From: Leptonema illini DSM 21528
GTDB lineage: Bacteria > Spirochaetota > Leptospiria > Leptospirales > Leptonemataceae
Assembly (NCBI RefSeq): GCF_000243335.1
Contig: NZ_JH597773.1
Span: 3,742,115 to 3,806,114, forward strand
DNA length: 64,000 nucleotides
Reading direction: 5' to 3'
Shown here: positions 35,200 through 35,985 of the stretch, one piece after another
Position numbering within the stretch: the stretch's first letter is position 1
Layout: every line of letters starts with the position of its first letter
The notes under the pieces: model-generated
Database searches by the model: none
The model's input: only the letters and a program-made list of their open reading frames with translations
What the model was told of the DNA's origin: nothing
Translations under genes and position numbers: made by a program

Positions 35200-35985
35200 T
35201 TACTGTGCCAGGTCTCGTATGCGAGCCTTCAGCTCGTCATACGGAAGCTCCAGTCGCACGGCGAGGTCGGTCAAAGAGAAGAGGCGCAGCTCTGTGTCCT
35301 TGCCGCGCGGCACGTACCGGCCGATTGGCTGAACGTTTGAGAGATTTCCCGCCGCAAGCACGCTTTCATCGAAGATCACGGAGCGACCGACCTTGCGCGT
35401 CACAGCCTGCAGGCGAGCCGCCGTATTCACCGTATCGCCGAGATAGGTATAGTCCTTTCTGCTCACCGACCCCACATTACCTTCAAGCACCTTACCCGTT
35501 GAGATTCCGAATCCGGCGAAGAGCAGCGAGAAAGGATCGTTAGCCGAACGGGAGGCGCGCAGACTTTTGAGCTTTGCTGAGATCTGTCGCACGGCTTCGA
35601 GAGAGGCTGCCGTTTCGTCGGCATTGAATACCGCCATCAGACCGTCGCCAAGCATCTCTGAGACCGGACGCATGAGAAAATCCTGCGAGTCGTCGAGGAT
35701 GACGGTTTTCATCGCCCAATCCGAATAGGCGCGCGTTTCGAGATTCAATTCCACTTTGAGAACGAAAAGATCTCTATGCCTGTCATCGGCGAAGATCTTT
35801 GACAGACGTGCGTCGAGTATTTCAACAGGGCCTTCAATGATCTGGTAGAAGACGTCTTTGTAGGTAAAGAGCACTCCGGTCAATCCGTCTCGCTCGTTGT
35901 TTCGAATGGAGAGCTCGGCGATCTTCTGTATCTCTTCGCCTGTCAGATGACGGCTGAATCGGCTGATGTATGTGACTCGTTTCAT
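35200..35985 (-). CDS. BLUF photoreceptor with truncated class III cyclase domain
   Basis: A 261-residue protein. Residues 1-95 are a complete BLUF blue-light domain with the flavin-contacting Tyr6, Asn30 and Gln48 and the Trp90-Met92 end (SDWAMK). The rest is a class III nucleotidyl cyclase domain, but it begins abruptly at GDGLMAVF (residue 113). The preceding part, which in BLUF cyclases such as bPAC carries the linker, the first metal Asp (FSDI/FADI motif) and the substrate Lys of KFIGD, is absent. The later part (GFGISTGKVLEGNVGS; YLGDTVNTAARLQAVTR) is well kept. Catalysis is unlikely unless complemented in a heterodimer. Convergent with the ArsR gene. Confidence 0.85.
   Translation of the reverse strand: MKRVTYISRFSRHLTGEEIQKIAELSIRNNERDGLTGVLFTYKDVFYQIIEGPVEILDARLSKIFADDRHRDLFVLKVELNLETRAYSDWAMKTVILDDSQDFLMRPVSEMLGDGLMAVFNADETAASLEAVRQISAKLKSLRASRSANDPFSLLFAGFGISTGKVLEGNVGSVSRKDYTYLGDTVNTAARLQAVTRKVGRSVIFDESVLAAGNLSNVQPIGRYVPRGKDTELRLFSLTDLAVRLELPYDELKARIRDLAQ

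Follow-up and report, generated by a model that had tools for sequence, protein, structure and literature searches.

Within the window, a 64,000-nt stretch of the Leptonema illini DSM 21528 genome, we find a BLUF-cyclase gene that lacks the first half of its cyclase, and we conclude that an in-frame loss-of-function deletion has probably turned a former photoactivated cyclase (PAC) into an inactive protein that keeps its BLUF domain and persists as a young relic under relaxed selection. The gene, delimited by its open reading frame, Pfam matches, and alignment to OaPAC, runs from an ATG start at 35985 to 35200 on the minus strand (35200..35985), encodes 261 aa comprising a BLUF domain and the C-terminal half of a class III cyclase, and probably corresponds to the published LiPAC. 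The genome has no other BLUF gene, and scanning the region around this one for promoters yielded no hit above chance.

Domain organization and the 86-residue deletion

The BLUF photoreceptor domain (residues 1–93; 35707..35985, minus strand) is intact, in agreement with the preliminary description of this DNA. Specifically, the domain gives a complete match to Pfam PF04940 (profile positions 1–92 of 92; 77 bits versus a cut-off of 25), and the flavin-pocket residues Y6, N29, N30, Q48, W90, and M92 are all present; judged from these residues, flavin binding and photocycling should both be preserved in the BLUF half. The start of the linker helix (residues 99–112; 35650..35691, minus strand, assigned by alignment) is followed by the remaining cyclase half (residues 113–240; 35266..35649, minus strand, assigned by Pfam and alignment), which retains the second metal Asp (D114), T180, N187, and R191. 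While the BLUF domain and helix start are present, the Pfam Guanylate_cyc match (residues 110–198) covers profile positions 55–142 of 183 only, and the alignment to OaPAC falls into two stretches, with residues 1–112 of the query matching OaPAC residues 1–112 and residues 108–213 matching OaPAC residues 194–299.

We aligned the L. illini protein, using MAFFT, with 21 full-length relatives: 20 BLUF genes from 19 of the 47 other genomes of the class, and one Thiomargarita PAC. Exactly 86 alignment columns (258 bp), located between L112 and G113 (35649..35650, minus strand), are empty in L. illini alone, and the segment is present in all 21 relatives. The preliminary description had estimated a loss of about 85–90 residues with the joint at residues 110–113, and had called for a search for a full-length version in relatives; the alignment confirms both estimates and supplies that version 21 times. 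The lost segment comprises most of the linker helix, through which PACs transmit the light signal to their cyclase; the first metal Asp (bPAC D157); α1 and α2; and the surrounding strands, including half of the catalytic β-sheet. The preliminary description had placed the linker, the first metal Asp, and the substrate Lys in the lost block. This is correct for the first Asp and for most of the linker; the place of the Lys (bPAC K197), in contrast, is filled in the L. illini protein by Glu110 (35656..35658, minus strand), as indicated by the alignment register (VSEMLGDG in L. illini versus VSKLLGDG in the relative L039). The catalytic set is thus incomplete, with the first metal Asp deleted and Glu at the substrate-Lys position.

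In L039, a V-S-x-x-L motif flanks both ends of the segment, and in relatives the sequence of the upstream copy is VSDML or ISEML; Glu110 probably derives from this upstream copy. A deletion between two short similar stretches would be the simplest origin of the joint, a step that we infer because the ancestral DNA is irrecoverable. The short form was not found in any other genome of the class that has a BLUF gene; a wider contig search returned only the full-length Thiomargarita PAC and one unrelated BLUF; and a search of the L. illini genome for the missing segment matched only other cyclases, with no lone first half.

An AlphaFold2 model of the L. illini protein, built with 12 sequences, has a sound BLUF domain, and pLDDT is below 50 at the joint (residues 99–114) and at residues 173–179. 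In the model of the full-length relative L034, the cyclase strands span residues 149–160, 196–201, 204–210, and 246–257; the first two of these are deleted in L. illini, residues 113–121 (strand β3 in the full-length relative) form no strand, and the 12-residue β4 is reduced to fragments. On these models, the deletion is predicted to take out β-strands needed for the cyclase fold. In a structural comparison, the remnant still matches the later half of the cyclase domain of bPAC (5mbg; Z 14.6; rmsd 3.1; 142 residues). Its pLDDT depends on having intact relatives in the alignment and is therefore no proof of domain stability.

Condition of the remnant and of its clade

The later half of the cyclase, which the preliminary description had called well preserved, keeps 28 of the 29 positions that are conserved among relatives. 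With the tree held fixed, the terminal branch of L. illini measures 0.33 for the BLUF domain and 0.42 for the cyclase half, giving a ratio of 1.27 versus 1.8 for the whole tree (cyclase half 12.5, BLUF 7.0), indicating that the remnant evolves without acceleration. The frame is open, with no stops or frameshifts and no increase in branch length, and the GC content by codon position resembles that of the neighbouring genes. The lack of stops bounds the time of neutral evolution at about 0.1 substitutions per site, and a second bound on the neutral time since the deletion lies at about 0.15 replacements per site; identity to the nearest relative is about 65% for the BLUF domain and 51% for the cyclase half, a distance at which synonymous sites would be saturated. 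The state of the remainder is compatible with a fairly young deletion and with continuing selection alike. The age of the deletion, which had been described as recent, is compatible with these data and only loosely bounded by them. The contrary outcome that had been considered, a short form shared among relatives and drifting neutrally, was not seen: among the genomes compared, the form occurs in L. illini only, and its remainder is not drifting.

The tree places the L. illini gene in a clade (support 100; 81 within the clade) with L034 (genome G179), L040 (G062), L050 (the second copy of G062), and L039 (G095). All of these genes carry candidate lesions. In particular, L050 (from about 1502 of G062:C16) has one in-frame TGA at a conserved BLUF Trp and a Lys-to-Arg substitution at the K197 position; L039 (from about 1501 of G095:C314) has one in-frame TGA at codon 11; and L034 and L040 have the catalytic Arg replaced by Lys (R278K) and the conserved Asp of the same motif replaced by His or Tyr (D271H/Y), with 8 of 31 conserved cyclase positions altered in L034. 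For the L034/L040 pair, dN/dS is 0.17, a value based on only 14 changes and like that of neighbouring genes.

The ortholog in G017, which belongs to the genus of G095, is truncated by a deletion of about 0.6 kb, unlike that of L. illini, which removed the BLUF domain and the first cyclase half and left a 137-aa C-terminal frame (L061 2350–2739, minus strand, G017:C45); the flanks of the cut gene are 84.5% identical to those in G095 (L057 7222–7922). Comparison of the remaining gene half between G017 and G095 gives a dN/dS of 0.17 at a dS of 0.59, within the range of the flanking genes (0.05–0.18), indicating that the lesions are young or are tolerated by a still-selected remnant.

Candidate lesions are thus present in 6 of 6 clade genes versus 0 of the 17 other BLUF cyclases compared. 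They comprise two different deletions, two TGA stops, and an Arg-to-Lys change in a sister pair, and would represent at least five separate events. The TGA stops, which lie in draft genomes (the MAGs G062 and G095), may be sequence errors instead of lesions, and R278K may lower rather than abolish activity. What is new here is that the entire LiPAC clade looks damaged, several times independently, with its sister clades intact, and the loss of light-cAMP signalling in aquatic spirochetes thereby becomes testable.

Relation to LiPAC and other PACs

Spectroscopy of LiPAC was reportedly published by Penzkofer et al. in 2014. The passages on LiPAC in PMC8522238 and PMC9043183 trace the name to 2014 and to the BLUF cyclase of L. 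illini 3055T. The protein bearing this name is most likely the 261-aa protein described here, because the gene is the sole BLUF gene of the strain. In the Xenopus oocyte data given in those passages, LiPAC yields <0.0005/min in the dark and in light with both fusions, versus 93/min for bPAC in light in the same assay, and bPAC single mutants retain 2–3% of activity (K197A, 2.6/min; R278A, 1.6/min; PMC8522238). The LiPAC passages of that paper give neither a structural reason for the inactivity nor an accession. Provided that LiPAC is this gene, the 86-residue deletion would account for the inactivity, offering a plain sequence reason for a puzzling null result in optogenetics: a named photoactivated cyclase without activity.

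The L. illini protein resembles bPAC (Beggiatoa) and OaPAC (Oscillatoria acuminata) in having an N-terminal BLUF domain, the start of a linker helix, and a C-terminal cyclase half, with about 36% identity over the aligned model and two matched stretches of sequence; unlike them, it has 86 residues fewer, Glu at the substrate-Lys position, and no full catalytic fold. TpPAC of the related spirochete Turneriella parva is likewise a BLUF-cyclase fusion but differs in being active, at 5/min in light and 0.033/min in the dark in the data reported alongside those for LiPAC (PMC8522238). LiPAC, a BLUF cyclase of the same strain as our gene, bears the published name of a photoactivated cyclase although those data describe it as inactive. 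"Degenerate PAC with intact BLUF domain" is the appropriate term for the 261-aa protein, which falls outside the catalytic definition of a PAC.

We propose that the ancestor would have been a PAC of the bPAC/OaPAC kind in the Leptonema lineage, and that its cyclase activity would have ended when 258 bp were lost in frame in a single event, with PVSEML and a VSKLLGDG-type motif as the probable endpoints. With Glu in place of the substrate Lys, and with β1-α1-α2-β2, the first metal Asp, and the bulk of the linker helix lost, the light signal would then lack a functional output. What remains today is most likely a young relic, left by a pathway on which selection has relaxed in this gene clade. 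The preliminary description had offered, as the first of two readings, that an in-frame deletion disabled catalysis; the full-length relatives, the loss of catalytic residues, the non-drifting remainder, and the inactivity given in the LiPAC passages all favour this reading.

Alternative explanations

The open frame, the 28 of 29 conserved positions, and the unraised rate would also be expected of a functional short protein and, to that extent, count against a relic. Selection would then maintain the short protein as a blue-light switch that acts without enzymatic activity, its cyclase remnant serving to bind a partner protein; the retained BLUF residues also point this way, as does a precedent, E. 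coli BluF (YcgF), in which a BLUF domain is likewise joined to a degenerate, non-catalytic output domain, in that case an EAL domain instead of a cyclase, and antagonizes a known partner, the repressor BluR (PMC3509220). The dN/dS of the R278K pair L034/L040 indicates, moreover, that an altered cyclase of this clade can remain selected. We nevertheless consider such selection unlikely: the short form is absent from all relatives examined, clade mates carry stops and another deletion, and a deletion dating back less than about 0.1 neutral substitutions per site would leave the remainder just as intact. The gene is also isolated: an AHSA1-ArsR pair converges on it from one side, and on the other a divergent series of genes encodes a small protein, an AraC-type regulator, and a glyoxalase-like protein; L. 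illini shares no conserved neighbourhood or partner gene with the PACs of relatives. The narrower proposal of a pseudo-cyclase, in which LiPAC after the loss of catalysis became a non-enzymatic blue-light switch with the cyclase remnant as its protein-binding output, is somewhat less likely still.

It is highly improbable that the cell does contain the 258 bp and that the assembly process omitted them: the species is represented by a single assembly (4,522,760 bp in 3 contigs, two of them 4,325,094 and 184,087 bp), but the L. illini 3055T genome has 1312x combined coverage and an error rate of <1 in 100,000 (PMC3746420), the joint has no long repeat that could collapse, the join is exactly in-frame, and LiPAC is inactive according to the passages cited above (PMC8522238).

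The second reading of the preliminary description, a light-controlled partner that contributes the Asn/Arg half of a site shared with another class III cyclase, gains no positive support here and has very little probability. D114, T180, N187, and R191 are retained, class III active sites lie between two subunits, and chytrid fungi have light-controlled cyclases that are heterodimeric (PMC12264004); the lost half of the fold, however, carries the dimer and sheet elements, Glu occupies the substrate-Lys position, and the genome search gave no lone complementary half. In addition, the L. illini genome encodes 18 further class III domains, 17 of which keep the Asp, Lys, Asp, Thr, Asn, and Arg residues and are complete alone; no obvious half-enzyme in need of a partner emerged.

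The eighteenth of these domains belongs to a REC-cyclase of L. illini (L003 850–2010, plus strand); it carries Glu in place of the substrate Lys and Ala in place of the substrate Thr, and keeps both metal Asp residues, Asn, and Arg. Its residues suggest an altered substrate choice, and it may be a guanylyl cyclase.
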